Below, piece by piece: positions 3,051-11,579 of a DNA stretch of 13,485 nt. This stretch comes from an archaeon. GTDB lineage: Archaea; Hydrothermarchaeota; Hydrothermarchaeia; JALTZZ01; JALUTC01. Numbering within the stretch: position 1 is the first letter of the stretch; every line of letters starts with the position of its first letter. The stretch is from assembly GCA_027051265.1 (NCBI GenBank), contig JALTZH010000142.1, forward strand, positions 1 to 13,485. The letters run 5' to 3'. The translations under genes were made by a program, and so were the position numbers. The notes beneath the pieces were generated by a model. That model did no database searches. It was not told the DNA's origin and saw nothing but the letters and a program-made list of their open reading frames with translations.

Positions 3051-4388
3051 TTAAATTCCACCAACCGTAACTATACATCTAATGTGAGGAGAACCATCAG
3101 ATACTGGAACTAGTTGAGATTCCTTACCACAATGACCAATGTGAAAGTCTAAATCTTTTCCTACTGCATCTATAGTTTTTAAAACGTTAACAATCTCTCC
3201 AGACATAGATATATCTCTTATAGGATATTTAATCTCTCCTCTTTCTATAACGTATCCTTCTTCAGCGGAAAATTGAAAAACACCTCTTGTTGTATCTACT
3301 TCTCCACCTTTAGATCCTATTAAATAGTATCCGAAATCAATATCCTCAAGCATTTCTTCAAACGAATGATCACCTCTTTCAATAAAGGTATTACTCATTC
3401 TAACTATAGGTAAGTATGAAAAATTCTGAGCTCTAGCATTTCCTGTAAGATTTAGATTTAATCGTTTTGAAGTTTCTCTAGATGTTAAAAATGATTTTAA
3501 AATACCATTTTTAACCAAAATTTTTCTCTTCGCTTTGACTCCTTCATCATCATAAAAATAAAAACCGTAAGCATTTCTTAACGTTGCATCATCGTATACG
3601 TTTAACAATTCTGATCCTATTTTTAAACCAAGTTTATCTTTCAATATTGATTCTCCTCTCAAGACATGATCCGCTTCAACAGCATGTCCCAATGCTTCGT
3701 GGATAAAAACACCAGCAAGTTTTGGATCAAGAATTACCTTATATTTACCAGCCTTAGGTTTTTTAGCGTCAAGTAATCTAATAGCACGTTCACATACGAG
3801 ATCAATATCGAAATGTTTAACTAATTCGAAACCACCAATACCTCCTTTTCTTTCAAAAGCAACTTGTAATTTATCGTTTTTCTTTGAAAAACATGATGCA
3901 TAAAGGGATACGTATTTAAGTTCTTGAAAAATTTTTGAGCCTTCAGAATTGTAATAATGTTTTCTTACCGTAGCAAAGCTTAGGATTAAAGTCGAGCTTA
4001 TTATTTCAGGATATTTTTTCGTTTTATTATAAAGTTCTTTCAAATAATTTACTCTTTCTTCAATATCAACATCTTCAAGCTTAATTTTTTCTTCAACACT
4101 TTTATTATCTTCGTAAACTTCCTCTATATTAATTTCAATACTTTCTTCTCCTTGTCTTGATGTTTTATATATACGATCAAAAATATCTGGTAATTTTTTG
4201 ATATCATTTACTGAAGCAAAAGAAATCTTTTTATCAACTATTCTAACACTGCCTCCTAAAACTTTGTCAAACTTTATATCTTCAACTTTTCCATCTTTTA
4301 GTATAATCGTCTCTATATTTGATTCTTGAAATCTAATATCAATAAACTTAGCATCTTTACTCAATATCTTGTAAATTATTTCCTCCAT
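3051..4388 (-). CDS. tldD: TldD family metalloprotease
   Basis: The 445-residue protein has the TldD/PmbA fold. Its zinc site is visible as HEALGH (residues 230-235, the HExxxH motif) followed by EADHVLRGES, and the third ligand is the Cys in GHCGKESQLVPVSDGSPHIR (C420). Other conserved blocks are GNARAQNFSYLPIVRMSNT (317-335), SKGGEVDTTRGVFQFSAEEG (359-378), and the N-terminal half that builds the cage. Length agrees with archaeal TldD (about 440-480). In bacteria TldD works with TldE (PmbA) as a heterodimer that degrades unfolded peptides; no tldE partner is in this window. The ATG at 4388 lies only 11 bases after the mature 3' end of tRNA-Leu, so there is no room for a promoter of its own and it is probably read through from the eL41/tRNA promoter. 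Confidence 0.94.
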   Translation of the reverse strand: MEEIIYKILSKDAKFIDIRFQESNIETIILKDGKVEDIKFDKVLGGSVRIVDKKISFASVNDIKKLPDIFDRIYKTSRQGEESIEINIEEVYEDNKSVEEKIKLEDVDIEERVNYLKELYNKTKKYPEIISSTLILSFATVRKHYYNSEGSKIFQELKYVSLYASCFSKKNDKLQVAFERKGGIGGFELVKHFDIDLVCERAIRLLDAKKPKAGKYKVILDPKLAGVFIHEALGHAVEADHVLRGESILKDKLGLKIGSELLNVYDDATLRNAYGFYFYDDEGVKAKRKILVKNGILKSFLTSRETSKRLNLNLTGNARAQNFSYLPIVRMSNTFIERGDHSFEEMLEDIDFGYYLIGSKGGEVDTTRGVFQFSAEEGYVIERGEIKYPIRDISMSGEIVNVLKTIDAVGKDLDFHIGHCGKESQLVPVSDGSPHIRCIVTVGGI

Positions 4389-4399
4389 AATTTATATGA

Positions 4400-4485
4400 T
4401 GCGGGGGGTGGGATTTGAACCCACGCAGGCTCTTCGCCAGCAGGTCTTAAGCCTGCCCCCTTTGACCAGGCTCGGGCACCCCCGC
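4400..4485 (-). tRNA. tRNA-Leu (TAA), class II with long variable arm
   Basis: The minus strand folds into a full 86-base class II tRNA: acceptor strand GCGGGGG (4485 to 4479) pairing with CCCCCGC (4407 to 4401), discriminator A at 4400, an anticodon arm GCAGG-CTTAAGA-CCTGC giving anticodon TAA, a variable arm of about 14 bases, and T arm GTGGG-TTCAAAT-CCCAC. CCA is not encoded (the next three bases are TCA). No intron is present. The bases just outside the mature ends (4486-4490 and 4396-4399 together with 4400) continue the acceptor pairing to a perfect 12-bp helix. The tRNA sits one base after the stop codon of eL41. Confidence 0.97.
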
Positions 4486-4486
4486 A

Positions 4487-4600
4487 TCATCTTCTTTGTA
4501 ACTTCTTCTTACGTTTCCTTTCTCTTAATCTTTTTTTTCTTGTTTTCCATCTACATTTACCAGCCTTTTTCCATTTTCTGGAACTATGTTTTCCAGCCAA
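4487..4600 (-). CDS. rpl41e: Large-subunit ribosomal protein eL41 (TTG start)
   Basis: This 37-residue, extremely basic peptide starts MAGKHSSRKWKKAGKCRW and continues KTRKKRLRERKRKKKLQRR. It follows the archaeal eL41 pattern RKWKKxGxxRWKxxKKRxRxLKRxRKK in composition, spacing and length; eL41 is a single-helix peptide in the ribosome. The start is TTG at 4600, chosen because GGTGAT, an excellent match to the 16S 3' end, lies just upstream on the minus strand (about 4608 to 4603), and because this start gives the family's usual length. A longer in-frame reading begins with ATG at 4687 but lies inside the divergent gene, has a hydrophobic non-family extension, and is rejected. The TGA stop (4489-4487) falls in the leader of tRNA-Leu, suggesting a joint transcript. 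Confidence 0.84.
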   Translation of the reverse strand: MAGKHSSRKWKKAGKCRWKTRKKRLRERKRKKKLQRR

Positions 4601-4643
4601 ATAATCACCCAAAATATAATAAAAAGTTAACAAATTTAAATTT
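4601..4643. promoter_or_regulatory. 43-bp bidirectional promoter region
   Basis: The region separates the eL41 start (TTG, minus) from the ATG at 4644 (plus). Toward eL41, the self-complementary AAATTTAAATTT (4632-4643) can act as a TATA element, with start site near 4610 and GGGTGAT serving as ribosome binding site. Toward the plus-strand gene, AATATAATAAAA (about 4612-4624) lies some 25 bases before the ATG, the spacing expected for a leaderless transcript; no Shine-Dalgarno site precedes that ATG. The assignment of boxes is positional. Confidence 0.5.
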
Positions 4644-6278
4644 ATGAGGATTATAGATGTAATCGTGGCTTTGGTTTTATTCTTCATCGTTATATTTTCT
4701 TCCTTACTGATAATTACGAATACGTTAGAGAATGTTGCTAAAGAGAGGGAATATATGGGTATAAAAAAAATTTTAGAAACAATTTCTATTAAAGATTGCT
4801 TTTTATCTAACGGATCAATTAATATTGAAATGGAAAATTTTAATGAGATATATAATTACATTGAGATATATCCATTCAAAGAAGATTGGATCGTTGATTT
4901 TCGTTATAGAGTTCCGGTTTTATTAAATGGTATTGGAAATTTTAGTATAACGATACGATTTGAATATGGTCATTCGAGAAATTTTTCGATTATAGTTTCT
5001 TCCAGTGAAAATATTATTCCTTTTGAAGCTAGCTGTGAATACTATAACAATTACTGGATTAAATCTTGCAACATCTCATTTTCGTCAAATACTACGCTTG
5101 TTTTTATTTATTACGATATAACTGATAGGAATACCTTAATATACAATAAAAGTTTAAACTTAATTAATTTAAGTAGAAATTACAAAATTCTTCCAGAAGA
5201 GATAAACGTTTATAGATCAATAGGAAAAGCGAGAGGTAAAGAATATATTCCGATAATCAGATATATAAACTGTTATGAGATATATAGAATAGCATGTGTT
5301 GGTAAGAATTACTCGTTTTGTACGAAATTCTTTAACGAATCAAATATAGATGAACTTTTTAATCTATCTTCTTCGGAGAACATTTACGAATATGATGCCG
5401 TGTTCTTTTTCTCAAATTTATCTGAAGATATTCTATCAAAAGTAAATGCTACAATTTTATACGATTTTTATAATATGGGTGGAGATGTCATATCTTTTTA
5501 TCAAAACTCTTATGAATTTTTATCCAAATTTAACATAAACAAACTTGATTATTATGGATATGGAATAATTTTACACGATAATCATTTAATCGTTAACTAT
5601 CCAAACGAGATAAGAGATATCTATTTTTATAATAGTTTAAAATCGTTACTCAAAAGTGATTACAAATATTACTATCCAATTTTCATACTGGATTATATAA
5701 TCCGAAACGATTCGCTAATTTGTCAATATGAGGAATGTTGGAACGTTACTTCAAGTCCTAATGTTAGATATGAGTTCATTGATAGTACAATAAATATACG
5801 AATCTCCGGAAATAAGTATATCTCTCTCTTACAGGAATTTATGTTTAACGAATCTTATTATAATAACCTCTCACTTCTTTTAAGGTATAGTGTTACGCAA
5901 ATAGCAGCTGCATCATCATTAAGAATATTTATTTCAATAGATAACTATACAATATATAAACATTTCTGTGAGGCACCATGTCAAGGAGTGTTTGATATTG
6001 AAGAAAAATATTATAATTTTTTAAAATATAAAAAAAGATATCTATTCAATATCTCTATTTATCATGGCGGTGGGAGAAGCGATATATCAATTGAAAACGT
6101 AACATTAGTCTCGGAATATTATCCTATAGGGTTTCTTCTTATCGAAAATTATTCGAACGGTATTCTTATTTTAATAACAACTTTCGAATCAGAAGACCTC
6201 GTTGAAAATATTAGATATTATATTACAAGAAAAGGAAAGAGTTATATTTTGAAAACAAAAATATACTATTTAAAATGA
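4644..6278 (+). CDS. Membrane-anchored extracellular protein, rich in N-glycosylation sequons
   Basis: The 544-residue protein opens with a short N terminus and one strongly hydrophobic segment (about residues 5-25) without an obvious cleavage motif, suggesting a signal anchor or pilin-like N terminus with the rest outside the cell. The remainder is rich in Asn, Tyr, Ile and Ser. By eye it contains about 20 N-x-S/T sequons spread along its length, for example at residues 56, 99, 113, 143, 149, 168, 175, 222, 231, 240, 258 and 268. Ten cysteines, all but C52 beyond residue 130, could form disulfides. Residues 249-287 (EYDAVFFFSNLS ... FYNMGGDVISFY) resemble a glutamine-amidotransferase-like flavodoxin-type core, but no catalytic triad is evident. 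I do not recognise a family. It may be a cell-surface or S-layer-associated protein. Confidence 0.8.
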   Translation: MRIIDVIVALVLFFIVIFSSLLIITNTLENVAKEREYMGIKKILETISIKDCFLSNGSINIEMENFNEIYNYIEIYPFKEDWIVDFRYRVPVLLNGIGNFSITIRFEYGHSRNFSIIVSSSENIIPFEASCEYYNNYWIKSCNISFSSNTTLVFIYYDITDRNTLIYNKSLNLINLSRNYKILPEEINVYRSIGKARGKEYIPIIRYINCYEIYRIACVGKNYSFCTKFFNESNIDELFNLSSSENIYEYDAVFFFSNLSEDILSKVNATILYDFYNMGGDVISFYQNSYEFLSKFNINKLDYYGYGIILHDNHLIVNYPNEIRDIYFYNSLKSLLKSDYKYYYPIFILDYIIRNDSLICQYEECWNVTSSPNVRYEFIDSTINIRISGNKYISLLQEFMFNESYYNNLSLLLRYSVTQIAAASSLRIFISIDNYTIYKHFCEAPCQGVFDIEEKYYNFLKYKKRYLFNISIYHGGGRSDISIENVTLVSEYYPIGFLLIENYSNGILILITTFESEDLVENIRYYITRKGKSYILKTKIYYLK

Positions 6279-6296: not shown

Positions 6297-8003
6297 TTAT
6301 TTCATAACTATTCTCTCAAGCTTTGGTATAGTTTTAATTTCAACTGGATTTGTAAGATATATTGTATCTAATGGATAGTTTGCAAGGTTAACGGAGTAAA
6401 ACCTCTTAAAGTAATAGCTTAAATCGCTGTATATCTCTCTCATTATATCATCATCGATTTTCGGTGCAACATAAAACGTTTTACCATAAATTTCATCGAT
6501 TACCTTCCCTTTCTTTACAACAACTCTACCGTTTTTTATCGTTAGGTATGAGTTTGAAAACGCTTTGATAATATCTTCGTAAGTATACTTTTCGGGATTT
6601 ATTTCATATACAGAAATATTTGCATCATTTCCAATATTCAAACTCCCAATGAATTTTTCCATACCTAAAATCTTTGCCGGTGCACTTCTAGTTATTATTG
6701 CTATTTCATAAAAATCATATTCACGATCTATACTTTCAATTATTGCCCTTCTTTTAATAGCAGGATTTACCTCTTTGATTATTTCTTCACGATATTTCTT
6801 TGACATAAGCATCGCAATTATTTCAGGATATCTTATAAAAGGAGCACCGTTTGGATGATCTGTTGTTAAGCAGTATTTCCATGGATCTGAAAGTAATGCT
6901 AGTTCAAGTCCGATTGCAAATTGAATTGAATGAACAGGACTTTTTTTTCTATAAATTATTGGCGTAACTCCAGGAGATGTTTCTAATTCTATACCAAGAT
7001 TCTGCCATTTTAATCCAGTTAATCTGCTTAAATAATATTCCATTGGTCCATCCGCTGTCATCGTTGTAGTTTCTCCAAACAGTACAAATCCGACATCGAA
7101 TGTCACGTTTCTATATTTATGAAGCTCTTTCACGATTTCTTCTGATTTAGATTCAAAATCTTTCCATGTTTTACCACCGTATGAATGAAATTGTATATGT
7201 GTTACATGCATAACCTGTCTTTTTTCGTTAGAATATTTTCCAGCAATTCTTATGGTTTCTATTGTATCAATGTAATTTCCAGGTCTGCCAAGATTTATTG
7301 TATGTAAATGTATGGAATGTGGCAAGTTAAGAATTTCATTCGCTTTTATTAATCCGTCGATTATATCTCTGGGTGTTATATCAAAATTTGGAACTATATC
7401 ATCCAAACTCTTAACATTTCCACCCCATGCCCATGCTTCATCTCCACCAGGATTTACTAGTTTAATAGCAAAACCCTTAACACTTTTCAGAATAAATGAA
7501 ACAAATGCAGCAAGTTTTTTATAATCCTTTTCTCTTATATATTTAAATACGAACCAATTGTTACCGAAGAGTGTATAGGCTGCTTTATCTACGATTGGAA
7601 TAGATTTCAGTTCTTCATGTGTATGTCTTGCAGATAATGGTGGCATTGCTGGAGTTGCAGCAAACGTGTATCCCATTTTAGCATAAAGATACCCGGTTAG
7701 CCATGTGGTTGGTAATGAATATCCACTTCCAGAATGGATTATACCTTCACGCTCTTTTACAAAATAAACGTGATCCTCTGGTCTCATAATTCTTCCAGCA
7801 TTAACTTTACCACCAGCTATATGAGTATGTATATCGACACCACCTGGCATTACAATTTTATTTGTACAATCTATGATTTTAACGTCTCGTTCATTACTGA
7901 ATTTTTCAACAACTTTACCATTCTCTATGAGTATATCCATTTTTTCTCCTTTTATGTTATTGAGAGGATCAAATACTATACCGTTCTTTAATAACAATCT
8001 CAT
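6297..8003 (-). CDS. fwdA: Formylmethanofuran dehydrogenase subunit A
   Basis: The 568-residue protein belongs to the amidohydrolase superfamily. It carries formyl transfer between formate and methanofuran at a binuclear zinc site, at the far end of the tunnel from the FwdB site. Visible landmarks are DIHTHIAGGKVNAGR (residues 57-71, H59 and H61), the lysine in FAIKLVNPGG (K181, candidate carboxylated lysine), HSIHLHTINLG (H232/H234), and LTTDHPNG (D382). They follow the order and approximate spacing of the ligands known from the Methanothermobacter wolfeii enzyme. Length is normal. The ATG at 8003 lies 35 bases inside fwdB, preceded by GAGGTTGAT, and is the last gene of the minus-strand fwdG-fwdB-fwdA set. 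The family can be called fwdA (tungsten) or fmdA (molybdenum); the sequence cannot distinguish them. Confidence 0.97.
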   Translation of the reverse strand: MRLLLKNGIVFDPLNNIKGEKMDILIENGKVVEKFSNERDVKIIDCTNKIVMPGGVDIHTHIAGGKVNAGRIMRPEDHVYFVKEREGIIHSGSGYSLPTTWLTGYLYAKMGYTFAATPAMPPLSARHTHEELKSIPIVDKAAYTLFGNNWFVFKYIREKDYKKLAAFVSFILKSVKGFAIKLVNPGGDEAWAWGGNVKSLDDIVPNFDITPRDIIDGLIKANEILNLPHSIHLHTINLGRPGNYIDTIETIRIAGKYSNEKRQVMHVTHIQFHSYGGKTWKDFESKSEEIVKELHKYRNVTFDVGFVLFGETTTMTADGPMEYYLSRLTGLKWQNLGIELETSPGVTPIIYRKKSPVHSIQFAIGLELALLSDPWKYCLTTDHPNGAPFIRYPEIIAMLMSKKYREEIIKEVNPAIKRRAIIESIDREYDFYEIAIITRSAPAKILGMEKFIGSLNIGNDANISVYEINPEKYTYEDIIKAFSNSYLTIKNGRVVVKKGKVIDEIYGKTFYVAPKIDDDIMREIYSDLSYYFKRFYSVNLANYPLDTIYLTNPVEIKTIPKLERIVMK

Positions 8004-9285
8004 CCTCTATCAACCTCTCATAAATTTCTTTTAAAACTTCTTCATCTGAAGGAAGATCTTCGTTTTCAATAACCTTTCTAAGTCTAATCGGAATATTATC
8101 CATTCTATAAGCTGTACCTTCAACTTCAACTCCAACTATTTTGGTGGGTATATAAATTTTAGCATACTTGGAAGATAAGTTGTAAAATGGATCCACATTT
8201 ATGTATGGAATAGAAAGTAAATGTCTTATTGCTTCCTTAGGAAAATTTGAAACCGGATCTGCGGCGATGATTAATGCGGAATCGACTTCTTTATTTGAAA
8301 GAACATCAACAGCACTTGTCTCACCGGGATTATATCTCGGATAGCCTCTCGTAAAATCTACAGCGTAAGGAAAGCCAGATAACCAAGCAAAAACTTGGTT
8401 GGACCCGGTTACGTTGTAATGTCCTCTCATCATCATTATGCTAAACTTTGTATATCGATTTAAATCAATTACAAGTGAGATCGCATTATCTATGGTTCTA
8501 TCTCTACCATATGTCTGCGTTAACCCCATTCCAAAAAATAGTACACCATATCTGCAGGATTTCATCATATCAACGATCTCATATATTTCATCTCTCTTTA
8601 TTCCTGCTATTGTATCCTGTTGAATATCTAGACCATTTAGTATCGATCTCATGGCAGATACGAGTTCATAATCCTTATTTGGTTCGATTCTTAAAAATTT
8701 CGTTGCAATCTTTGCTGTATCGGTTTCTCTTACATCAATTACTATCAATTTTCTATCAAGAAAACCCCTCTCTGTAAATAATCCTCTCGGATATAATGTG
8801 TATCTGGACAGATGTCTTGGATGTGCATTTAACGGATTACAACCCCAGTATATTATTAAATCTGCTCTGTTTTTTACATCTCCAAGAGTACACGATGGAT
8901 ATCCAACCGTTTGGTAGGAAACAACGCTAGGACCATGACATACGGTAGATGTGTTATCGATATATCCTCTTAGTAATTCTGCTATTTTAACTCCATATTC
9001 TATTGCTTCGTTTGATGTACTTGAAAATCCATAGAGTAAGCATCTTGTAGAATTTTTTAAGAGTTTTACTGCTTTATCTATTGCATAATCAAAATCAACT
9101 TCCTTTTTTTCACCATTTTCTTTTATTATTGGTTTTTTCTTTCTATTTTTTTTATGTTTTAAAAATTTTGATGCACCTAATCTACATGCATTTCTAACGG
9201 TTTTTATTTCGTTGTTATCAACTTCTATTACTAAATCATCACAGAGACATCCACAGAAAGGACATACTACATCCGTTACTATCAT
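7969..9285 (-). CDS. fwdB: Formylmethanofuran dehydrogenase subunit B (W/Mo-pterin catalytic subunit)
   Basis: The 438-residue protein is the formate-dehydrogenase-like subunit that reduces CO2 to formate at a tungsten or molybdenum bis-pterin centre. An N-terminal [4Fe-4S] site is formed by CPFCGCLCDD (C8, C11, C15) with C34 in NACRLGASK. The metal-ligating residue is expected at C116 in STVCHGPS; it is an ordinary TGT codon, so this is the cysteine, not a selenocysteine, form. WGCNPLNAHPRHLSRY (147-162) and MMMRGHYNVTGSNQVFAWLSGFP are typical pterin-binding stretches. The C-terminal molybdopterin domain carried by FwdD in many archaea is not fused here. Translation start: AGGTGATC, an eight-base match to the 16S 3' end, sits six bases before the ATG and overlaps the ferredoxin stop codon, only 4 bases separating the genes. 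Confidence 0.97.
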   Translation of the reverse strand: MIVTDVVCPFCGCLCDDLVIEVDNNEIKTVRNACRLGASKFLKHKKNRKKKPIIKENGEKKEVDFDYAIDKAVKLLKNSTRCLLYGFSSTSNEAIEYGVKIAELLRGYIDNTSTVCHGPSVVSYQTVGYPSCTLGDVKNRADLIIYWGCNPLNAHPRHLSRYTLYPRGLFTERGFLDRKLIVIDVRETDTAKIATKFLRIEPNKDYELVSAMRSILNGLDIQQDTIAGIKRDEIYEIVDMMKSCRYGVLFFGMGLTQTYGRDRTIDNAISLVIDLNRYTKFSIMMMRGHYNVTGSNQVFAWLSGFPYAVDFTRGYPRYNPGETSAVDVLSNKEVDSALIIAADPVSNFPKEAIRHLLSIPYINVDPFYNLSSKYAKIYIPTKIVGVEVEGTAYRMDNIPIRLRKVIENEDLPSDEEVLKEIYERLIEDEIVIKERYSI

Positions 9286-9295
9286 TTGATCACCT
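9286..9295 (-). promoter_or_regulatory. Strong Shine-Dalgarno site of fwdB
   Basis: AGGTGATC on the minus strand overlaps the TAG stop of the upstream ferredoxin gene and lies a few bases before the fwdB ATG at 9285. It fixes the fwdB start and suggests tight translational coupling of the catalytic subunit to the small ferredoxin. Confidence 0.75.
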
Positions 9296-9517
9296 AATCG
9301 TTATAGCATTTCTTGGACAAAATTTTAAACAATTACCACATCCAGTACAAAATTTCTTTTTGATAGCAATGATACCATTCTTAAGTTCCATTTTTGTTAA
9401 ATAACCGCTTTCAATCTCTTCTAAATCTATCTCTGGACAACAAACAATACAGTTTCCACAACCTATACACTTTTCCTCATCTATATATACGTCGTAGAGT
9501 TTCATACATAATACCAT
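9290..9517 (-). CDS. fwdG: Two-[4Fe-4S] ferredoxin subunit (FwdG-like)
   Basis: The 75-residue protein contains two complete CxxCxxCxxxCP motifs, CIGCGNCIVCCP (residues 17-28) and CTGCGNCLKFCP (57-68). They are separated by about 28 residues, longer than in a minimal bacterial ferredoxin but usual for FwdG/FmdG-type subunits of formylmethanofuran dehydrogenase. It would pass electrons to the FwdB cluster. It is the first gene of the operon. ATG at 9517 gives MVLCMKLYD; the Met at residue 5 (9505) is an alternative start. TATA-like sequence about 26-30 bases before 9517 supports the upstream ATG as a leaderless start. It could also be a stand-alone ferredoxin, but its position against fwdB favours the subunit role. 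Confidence 0.85.
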   Translation of the reverse strand: MVLCMKLYDVYIDEEKCIGCGNCIVCCPEIDLEEIESGYLTKMELKNGIIAIKKKFCTGCGNCLKFCPRNAITIR

Positions 9518-9603
9518 CGATTTTTAAAAATGCAAAACATTTAAATTATAAAAAATTAATCGATTCTCAACATTTAGAAATACCAAAAGAAAAAATATTT
9601 ATT
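9518..9603. promoter_or_regulatory. Divergent promoter region of the fwd operon and the radical SAM gene
   Basis: This 86-base A/T-rich gap contains CATTTAAATTATAAAAAATTAA (about 9538-9559), a block that reads as a TATA element on either strand. For the minus strand it lies about 26-30 bases before the ferredoxin ATG. For the plus strand it predicts a start site near 9574 and a leader of about 30 bases before ATG 9604, without a Shine-Dalgarno site. The inverted repeat TTTTTAAAAA (9521-9530) lies between them. Shared regulation is possible but unproven. Confidence 0.45.
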
Positions 9604-10827
9604 ATGAATGATGAAAAATTCTCATCGGAAAATCCTCATAGATACAAAAAGCCAATTTCCGTTATGTGGGAATGTACAATTTTCTGCCAGATGAATTGTT
9701 TACATTGTAAAGCAAATGCAAAAAAAGAGAGATCTCCAATGGAACTATCTACCGAGGAAGCTTTTCAACTCATTGATCAAATACTTGAATTTAGAAAACC
9801 ATATCCCATTTTAAGAATAACCGGCGGAGATGCTTTAGCTAGAGAGGATATTTTTGATATCATAAAATATGCGAAGGATAATGATATCGAAGTAACTATA
9901 GCTCCAAGTTCAACGAATAATCTTAACAGAATTAATTTAGAAAAGTTAAAGAAGGTAGGTATAGATGCTATTGCTTTAAGTATAGATGGTCATGAAGCAT
10001 ATCTACACGATAGTTTTAGAGGATATAAAGGGAGTTTTGAAATTCTAACCAAAGCCATTAATATAATTAACGATTTAGGTATTCCTTTAAGATTAATGAC
10101 CACAGTAACTAAAATAAACGTAAATTATCTTCCCGAAATGTTTGTATTTGTAAATAAACTTAACGCTGAAGGGTGGTATTTATATTTATTGATACCTGTA
10201 GGTAGAGCTAGTATTAAATATGAGCTAGAACCACAAGAAATAGAGGATGTTTACAATTTTGTATATGATTTAATTAATCTAAACGTCATGAAAGTAGATA
10301 TAATAGCTGGTGGTGAACCTTTCAGAAGAGTATTTATAATGAGAAAGTTAATTGAGATGGGAGTATTAAAAGAAAACGTTATAAAGTTTGGAGATTTGTA
10401 TAAGTATTTAAAAAAGAAACTTTTAAAATTGGTCTCGGAAACAAATTTAAAGAAAAAAGAAATTAAAAGAGTTAGAAGAAAAGGATTTGGTAAAGGAATA
10501 TTCGTTGCTCATGATGGTAGAGTATATCCAAGTAGTTTCTTACCAATTGAAATCGGGAATATTAGGAAAGCACGACTTCTAGACATCTATAACAACTCCG
10601 AAATTTTAGAAAAGATCTCAAATCCTAAATATTTGAAAGGTAAATGTAGTCTTTGTGAATTTAATTCTATCTGTAGAGGATGCAGATCGAGAGCATATGC
10701 TATAACTGGAGATTATTTGGCCGAGGATCCTCTTTGCATATACGAACCTGGAACGATATCTAAAGATATTAATATGAGAGAATTTTTGGAGAAATTCGGT
10801 ATAACATTTTATACAAGAATTTATTGA
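9604..10827 (+). CDS. Radical SAM/SPASM-type enzyme, TIGR04053-like (NirJ/AhbD relatives)
   Basis: From the ATG at 9604 the protein has 407 residues. The radical SAM cluster motif CQMNCLHC (C28, C32, C35) is followed by ELSTEEAFQLIDQILEF, the SAM-binding TGGDAL, and APSSTNNL and LSIDGHEAYLHDSFRG blocks. After residue about 310 come GIFVAHDGRVYPSSFLP and a cysteine-rich end (C348, C351, C357, C360, C378) in the pattern CxxCx5CxxC...C, with RSRAYAITGDYLAEDP between, an auxiliary [4Fe-4S] site. This order matches the TIGR04053 group, related to the haem enzymes AhbC/AhbD and NirJ, whose substrate I do not know. Residues about 240-305, with KKLLKLVSETNLKKKEIKRV, look lineage-specific. A longer reading frame extends upstream over the divergent ferredoxin gene; the shorter start is chosen because it clears the promoter region. 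Confidence 0.87.
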   Translation: MNDEKFSSENPHRYKKPISVMWECTIFCQMNCLHCKANAKKERSPMELSTEEAFQLIDQILEFRKPYPILRITGGDALAREDIFDIIKYAKDNDIEVTIAPSSTNNLNRINLEKLKKVGIDAIALSIDGHEAYLHDSFRGYKGSFEILTKAINIINDLGIPLRLMTTVTKINVNYLPEMFVFVNKLNAEGWYLYLLIPVGRASIKYELEPQEIEDVYNFVYDLINLNVMKVDIIAGGEPFRRVFIMRKLIEMGVLKENVIKFGDLYKYLKKKLLKLVSETNLKKKEIKRVRRKGFGKGIFVAHDGRVYPSSFLPIEIGNIRKARLLDIYNNSEILEKISNPKYLKGKCSLCEFNSICRGCRSRAYAITGDYLAEDPLCIYEPGTISKDINMREFLEKFGITFYTRIY

Positions 10828-10828
10828 A

Positions 10829-11350
10829 ATGCATTTAGATGTAGCCGATATTAGAGAAAACGATTTAAAACGATTACTAAAAATTGTTGGTGAAGAGAAG
10901 GATCAAACGTTAATCATTGCAGCTGCAAACATATTAAAAAGAGTAGCAAACAAGAATATACAGCTGTTTAAAAATTTTAAAGATGACCTATTACATCTTT
11001 TAAATAGCCAATATGAAGAGATTATATCAGCTGCGATGTTCTGTTTAACATTGTATGTGAACAAATTCGATGACAAAGATATTAGAAATGTTTTAAGAAA
11101 AAAAATTATAGAAATTTTTGAAAAAAGTGATGATCCTTATATAATAGGTGAAGCACTATTCTCTATAGGAGAAATAGGAAGTGTTAACGATATAAAATAT
11201 ATCGAAAAATATTTAAATGATAAACGTGAGATACATATTTTTCTACCAAAAAAGGGATTTGTTATAATAGAGCTTAAATATTTAGCTAGAGAAGCTATTA
11301 ATAAAATATATGATAGATATAAAAACTTTAGACCTAAAGAAAAACGTTGA
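10829..11350 (+). CDS. HEAT-repeat protein, uncharacterised
   Basis: The 173-residue protein is all-helical by composition, with paired amphipathic helices of HEAT type: LIIAAANILKRVANKNIQLF (from 28), EEIISAAMFCLTLYVNKF (63-80), and PYIIGEALFSIGEIGSVNDI (102-121), the last matching the common HEAT signature A-xxL-xxIG-ix. It ends in a basic tail. HEAT proteins are protein-binding scaffolds, and one that directly follows a radical SAM enzyme could present a substrate or partner, but this is inference. It starts one base after the upstream stop codon, with no Shine-Dalgarno site visible, and overlaps the next gene by 41 bases. No membrane segment or metal-binding motif is seen. Confidence 0.75.
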   Translation: MHLDVADIRENDLKRLLKIVGEEKDQTLIIAAANILKRVANKNIQLFKNFKDDLLHLLNSQYEEIISAAMFCLTLYVNKFDDKDIRNVLRKKIIEIFEKSDDPYIIGEALFSIGEIGSVNDIKYIEKYLNDKREIHIFLPKKGFVIIELKYLAREAINKIYDRYKNFRPKEKR

Positions 11351-11579
11351 GTATCTTACGAAAAGAACGTTAACGGAAAATGGTAAAAGAGGATTTGTTG
11401 TAATCGTTAAGTTAAAAGATCATGAAAAAGCTAAATATCATTTAAAATGTCCTAATTGTACAAAAGAGAGTGTGGGTGAAATAGATTATAGTAAAAGATC
11501 ACATATCGTTTCGTGTGAATATTGTAAACGAAAATACGTTGTAAAACGATTATATTCTAAAAGAAGAATAAAATATTGA
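11310..11579 (+). CDS. Small zinc-ribbon protein, uncharacterised
   Basis: The 89-residue basic protein carries one four-cysteine zinc ribbon, CPNC (C47, C50) and CEYC (C69, C72), spaced by 18 residues and flanked by beta-strand-like stretches GFVVIVKLK and KRKYVVKRL. The C terminus is Lys/Arg-rich (RLYSKRRIKY), so nucleic-acid or ribosome binding is possible. No family is recognised. The only in-frame ATG before the ribbon is at 11310, inside the end of the HEAT gene, giving a 41-base overlap; translation could start later at an unusual codon. It is the last of three closely packed genes. The intact cysteine pairs support it as real. Confidence 0.68.
   Translation: MIDIKTLDLKKNVEYLTKRTLTENGKRGFVVIVKLKDHEKAKYHLKCPNCTKESVGEIDYSKRSHIVSCEYCKRKYVVKRLYSKRRIKY

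Follow-up and report, generated by a model that had tools for sequence, protein, structure and literature searches.

A TIGR04053-branch radical SAM protein as a candidate AhbD-type tetrapyrrole decarboxylase for sulfite respiration in Hydrothermarchaeota

The chemistry of AhbD is established: SAM is cleaved, a hydrogen atom is abstracted from a propionate side chain, CO2 is lost, a vinyl group is formed and an electron departs via the auxiliary cluster (PMC11306076, PMC10452713). In the AhbDs of non-methanogenic archaea, Fix et al. described a pattern restricted to the AuxII cluster, and none of these enzymes has been assayed biochemically (PMC10452713). One member of this kind is the ahbD gene HVO_2144 of Haloferax volcanii, the deletion of which nearly abolishes anaerobic growth, with added haem rescuing the mutant (PMC5746218). 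The Thermus gene of the TIGR04053 family, treated below, goes by the name NirJ in the literature on the nirSJM operon (PMC5748679, PMC7694296). A literature search on the family name TIGR04053 retrieved no paper.

The locus considered here belongs to an archaeon of the Hydrothermarchaeota. The window, i.e., the whole stretch of 13,485 nucleotides that was analysed, is contig C142 of a 1.46-Mb draft genome, 95% complete (genomes, contigs and loci are designated below by G, C and L numbers). The features of interest are as follows:

6297-8003, minus strand: fwdA, formylmethanofuran dehydrogenase subunit A (TIGR03121); neighbour only
7969-9285, minus strand: fwdB, formylmethanofuran dehydrogenase subunit B (TIGR03129); neighbour only
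9290-9517, minus strand: fwdG-like 2[4Fe-4S] ferredoxin, 75 aa; neighbour only
9518-9603, no strand: 86-bp intergenic region from which fwdG and the radical SAM gene diverge
9604-10827, plus strand: TIGR04053-branch radical SAM/SPASM(twitch) protein, 407 aa; relative of AhbD-type haem synthases
10829-11350, plus strand: HEAT-like alpha-solenoid protein, 173 aa; no conserved unit
11310-11579, plus strand: small zinc-ribbon protein (CPxC...CxxC), widespread archaeal family; no conserved unit

The three plus-strand ORFs are real coding genes, displaying the codon bias of the genome in frame (+0.19 to +0.25 bits per codon) and negative scores in all other frames. Position 9604 was kept as the start of the radical SAM gene, since the upstream extension of 70 codons (9394-9603) lacks this bias. 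An AT-rich element, ATTTAAATTATAAAA, located in the intergenic region about 50 bp 5' of the start codon, is a possible candidate for the TATA box of this gene. On the opposite strand, FwdB and FwdA score well above the cut-offs of TIGR03129 and TIGR03121 in the profile search. Elsewhere in the window, the ORF at 4396-4647 is spurious, coinciding with a tRNA-Leu(taa) on the minus strand (4398-4486), and positions 3051-4388 of the minus strand encode a TldD-type metalloprotease, with no PmbA/TldE partner seen within the window.

The order and spacing reported by the first-pass annotation agree with these coordinates: the HEAT ORF begins one base past the radical SAM stop, the zinc-ribbon ORF overlaps it by 41 bp, and all three genes diverge from fwdGBA across the 86-bp gap. 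The same annotation suggested that the HEAT and zinc-ribbon proteins could be dedicated partners of the radical SAM enzyme, possibly helping to mature a cofactor or peptide that serves C1 metabolism. The spacing does suggest co-transcription in this genome, and a HEAT fold could serve as a scaffold. Still, this reading is by now largely refuted and very improbable, as the three genes neither co-occur nor adjoin in relatives. The HEAT protein was found in the genome of the window only: 177 other genomes, among them one from its genus and every sampled member of the class, yielded no relative at E 1e-5. The zinc ribbon has relatives in 24 of 61 genomes, scattered over unrelated loci, and none of 20 such neighbourhoods contains the radical SAM gene. 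Conversely, 16 neighbourhoods of the radical SAM gene in relatives harbor no homologue of fwd, HEAT or zinc-ribbon genes, and the proposed tie to C1 metabolism is not supported. Hence, a conserved module was rejected; the HEAT and zinc-ribbon genes would adjoin the radical SAM gene by chance, perhaps sharing its transcript in this single lineage.

The identity of both small proteins can be specified in part. Against Pfam HEAT_2, the HEAT protein scores 18.6, below the threshold of 27.7, so its designation is not borne out by sequence profile; at the same time, its single-sequence AlphaFold2 model (pLDDT 90.6) is an alpha-solenoid with HEAT/ARM-type repeats as the best PDB matches (E about 1e-3), which upholds the fold. 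The zinc ribbon resembles Elf1-like proteins in its CPxC...CxxC ribbon and length of 80-110 aa, with CP.C and C..C invariant among its relatives, but its best Pfam match, Zn_ribbon_Elf1, reaches 21.2 against a threshold of 29.8, and no convincing solved relative was found.

The family assignment of the radical SAM protein made earlier, i.e., a TIGR04053-like enzyme with an auxiliary cluster and kinship to AhbC, AhbD and NirJ, is corroborated by profile scores and phylogeny. Its top NCBIfam family is TIGR04053 at 393.7 bits, 1.3 under the curated cut-off of 395, which is exceeded by the clade-A genes of nine class relatives and of G044; the next families are AhbD, NirJ2 and NirJ1. Clade A comprises the window protein and eleven relatives aligning over the full length at 51–62% identity, ten of them from members of the class (the class relatives compared are Hydrothermarchaeota, i.e., Pyrohabitans, Hydrothermarchaeum and others), whereas the eleventh, G044, belongs to a different class. 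A tree of 35 proteins places the TIGR04053 branch as one group next to AhbD (support 100/99), inside which the window gene falls in the 12-member clade A (100/100); the nearest sister of the latter is an Archaeoglobus-like protein from G028 (86/85). AhbC and NirJ (TIGR04546, TIGR04051), though of the same group of tetrapyrrole radical SAM enzymes, constitute a separate branch. Within clade A, the branch of the window gene is the longest (0.61), and the full-SPASM AhbD of the same genome (L122:3469-4485) has a branch of 1.06 vs. 0.21 for its sister in G002: the haem enzymes of this lineage evolve fast.

The cysteine pattern is that of the AuxII-only AhbDs. The window protein carries the SAM-cluster cysteines C28, C32 and C35 (CX3CX2C) and the auxiliary-cluster cysteines C348-X2-C351-X5-C357-X20-C378, conforming to CX2CX5CX20-38C, with the AuxI cysteines replaced save for C360. 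This extra cysteine, found in the window protein alone among the TIGR04053 rows examined, stands at an AuxI position and yields CX2CX5CX2CX17C, the remaining AuxI ligands being absent. In the alignment, AhbD rows possess all eight SPASM cysteines, a full set that the window protein lacks, and TIGR04053 rows have the four AuxII cysteines, almost all of them showing Ser at two of the AuxI positions. Cluster geometry was not taken from the predicted structure, because much of its C-terminal part is of low confidence (pLDDT under 50 over 344–380).

The closest described systems are AuxII-only AhbDs such as HVO_2144 (PMC5746218, PMC10452713), with which the window protein shares CX3CX2C, the AuxII cysteines, the loss of most AuxI cysteines and the TIGR04053 profile; its identity to TIGR04053 proteins of haloarchaea, Thermus, Deinococcus and a Campylobacter plasmid is about 32–38%. 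Clade A differs from them in the motifs HCK, GG(N/D)A, CRG and YPSSF, in a longer linker (about 400 vs. 360–390 aa in total) and in occurring mostly alongside a second AhbD. At twelve positions, including 36, 76-77, 163, 194, 311 and 358, clade A has a residue that is invariant or almost so and that differs from the one fixed in other TIGR04053 rows; some of these changes, e.g., HCR to HCK (36), GGDP/GGEP to GGNA (76-77) and CGG to CRG (358), affect sites where the other TIGR04053 and AhbD proteins (nearly) agree. The AhbD of methanogens and sulfate reducers (TIGR04545; e.g., Methanosarcina barkeri) is similar as the sister group in the tree with the same SAM domain and AuxII motif, but the window protein scores 269.7 bits against its curated cut-off of 500 and lacks the AuxI ligands other than C360.

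The SPASM/twitch domain and the top PDB fold matches (PqqE, SuiB, SkfB) could also be read as signs of a RiPP-type maturase modifying a peptide. This is hardly credible, since after TIGR04053 the tetrapyrrole enzymes AhbD, NirJ and AhbC score far above the peptide maturases, and no precursor-like short ORF recurs beside clade-A genes, except for an ORF of 70–100 aa in three close relatives. The GMGT lipid synthase Gms, another archaeal SPASM enzyme, was likewise set aside: the paper describing it separates it from AhbC/AhbD, and its N-terminal helical domain and pair of auxiliary clusters (PMC11186832) distinguish it from the window protein.

The gene neighbourhoods of TIGR04053 members in other organisms point to haem synthesis and denitrification. 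The genes on plasmids of Haloferax larsenii and Halobaculum (501.6 and 471.3 bits) are accompanied by genes for halocyanin, a cbb3-type subunit I (NorB-like) and multicopper oxidase/nirK, and HVO_2144 has been reported amid the same gene set (PMC5746218). This synteny, together with the H. volcanii match to TIGR04053 in the control genomes, indicates that HVO_2144 is itself a member of the family. In Thermus, the TIGR04053 gene follows nirS, and in Deinococcus it is located near CbiX, CobA and a nitrite/sulfite reductase. In other archaeal genomes, according to by-eye reading of translations, on which several of the neighbour-gene names depend, the order TIGR04053 – fused ahbAB-like – ahbC-like occurs at L168, an ahbB-like gene at L170, hemL at L167 and L174 (the latter also with a HemY-type oxidase) and hemA at L173; at L094, the neighbour is a ferrochelatase-like gene. 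The view of the first-pass annotation that these enzymes have no established substrate therefore needs amending in light of the Haloferax phenotype and the haem-gene contexts. Because of these contexts and the synteny with the tested Haloferax ahbD, Fe-coproporphyrin III is a likely substrate.

The distribution of the two families outside the class agrees with such a role. When TIGR04053 is counted above its cut-off and AhbD as TIGR04545 at 395 bits or more, 14 genomes have TIGR04053 only, six have AhbD only and one (G044) has both (the ambiguous G158 and the truncated gene in G077 were left out). This exclusivity in 20 of 21 genomes is the pattern expected of two interchangeable haem synthases.

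In Hydrothermarchaeia, clade A is associated with the genes of Dsr. Clade-A genes lie about 1.5–6 kb from dsrA/dsrB, a ferredoxin gene and hemA in G006, G007, G011, G017 and G044; in G014, the clade-A gene adjoins hemA, hemA also adjoins dsrAB in G008 and G018, and in the latter a hemE homologue is found 1.2 kb from the clade-A gene. dsrAB are present in 12 of 13 carriers of clade A vs. 4 of 10 other genomes of the class (Fisher p = 0.019, with related genomes treated as independent and G009 left out). In the genome of the window, the clade-A gene is not near dsrAB; there, an AhbC/NirJ1-like radical SAM gene, distinct from it, directly precedes dsrA and dsrB (L120:7117-10557, contig C48), an order repeated in the sister genome G001 (L124).

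The class also departs from the exclusivity seen elsewhere. Nine of its genomes at least 85% complete, including that of the window, hold both clade A and a full-SPASM AhbD; besides these two, the genome of the window encodes ahbA-like, ahbB and ahbC-like genes. In the carriers of families f3 and f4 and in G044, ahbA, ahbB and ahbC were not detected (thresholds E 1e-15 and 1e-35), with the reservation that genes may be missing from a draft assembly where contigs break off, as illustrated by the partial clade-A gene at the end of a contig at L112. The carriers devoid of AhbC prompted the idea of clade A as its replacement, which was dropped, as the genome of the window, G002 and G011 also have AhbC.

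Other radical SAM loci of the class deserve mention in their own right. At L189:4591-9141 (G008) and L192:2199-6894 (G015), an AhbD-type gene shares a cluster with hemE, a ferrochelatase gene and one of protoporphyrinogen-oxidase type, and no ahbA/ahbB was found in G008; this looks like a hybrid haem route with AhbD performing the last step of a coproporphyrin-type pathway. Genes at L121:1611-3044, L123:5345-6784 and L125:7341-8762 encode a further AhbD-related protein, about 475 aa long, that is extended at its N-terminus and has the full SPASM; in G000 and G001 they adjoin HdrA/B/C-like genes. L205:5261-11703 (G006, C15) contains a pair of adjacent radical SAM genes, both from this superfamily, and two paralogous neighbours nearby, possibly for peptide modification.

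If clade A merely repeated the reaction of AhbD, it would be redundant, since nine genomes of the class hold both. Could it be a plain haem b isoenzyme, its association with dsrAB reflecting the shared ancestry of a few lineages? The haem-gene context across the TIGR04053 family and the phenotype of Haloferax ahbD (PMC5746218) fit this, and in Haloferax the last step is likewise served by two enzymes, ChdC and AhbD. However, the two types regularly occur together in the class but do so once outside it, the clade-A substitutions are fixed, and G044, although of another class, shares the cluster of dsrAB, ferredoxin, radical SAM gene and hemA. Overall, this explanation seems rather improbable.

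A somewhat stronger competitor, unlikely as it is, holds that the reaction of clade A has changed: instead of making haem b, it would modify a tetrapyrrole, sirohaem or some other, for the Dsr of this lineage. Besides the dsrAB–hemA linkage in five genomes and the near-restriction of carriers to genomes with dsrAB, it draws on the separate AhbD of nearly all carriers and on the clade-specific residues near the SAM site and the auxiliary cluster. The missing ahbA, ahbB and ahbC genes of the f3, f4 and G044 carriers, combined with the hemE, hemH and protoporphyrinogen-oxidase-type genes beside the AhbD of G008, leave no obvious slot for clade A in haem b synthesis there. On the other hand, clade A has retained the auxiliary-cluster ligands, and its nearest sister is the only AhbD-like gene of G028, an Archaeoglobus-like genome with dsrA, so that this sister probably makes haem b. 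We know of no modified sirohaem from such an organism.

The explanation preferred here, by a little better than an even chance, is that the product of the radical SAM gene is a tetrapyrrole decarboxylase of the AhbD type that serves sulfite respiration alone. A reduced [4Fe-4S] cluster and SAM would generate the 5'-deoxyadenosyl radical. The iron tetrapyrrole attacked by this radical would most likely be Fe-coproporphyrin III, one of whose propionate side chains would give up a hydrogen; CO2 would be released and a vinyl group formed, the spare electron presumably leaving via the single auxiliary cluster. Clade A would be the copy for sulfite respiration, kept with dsrAB and hemA, and ordinary haem b in the class would come from the second, full-SPASM AhbD. 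Family, cysteine pattern, position in the tree, joint presence with AhbD, association with dsrAB and the absence of a conserved trio are direct results, from which substrate, reaction, electron path and dedication to Dsr are deduced. Against this explanation stand the coexistence with AhbD, the clade-fixed residues and the distance of the gene from dsrAB in its own genome.

Given its coexistence with AhbD and its fixed changes, clade A might make some other tetrapyrrole for Dsr. An altered AhbD adding a new modification there, e.g., converting propionate to vinyl on sirohaem, is a speculative prospect with a low chance of proving correct; if true, the deep archaeal Dsr would carry a cofactor not described before. 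As for the family, AuxII-only AhbDs have so far been without biochemical study (PMC10452713), and TIGR04053, a database name without a function, can be tied via gene order to the haem synthase step.
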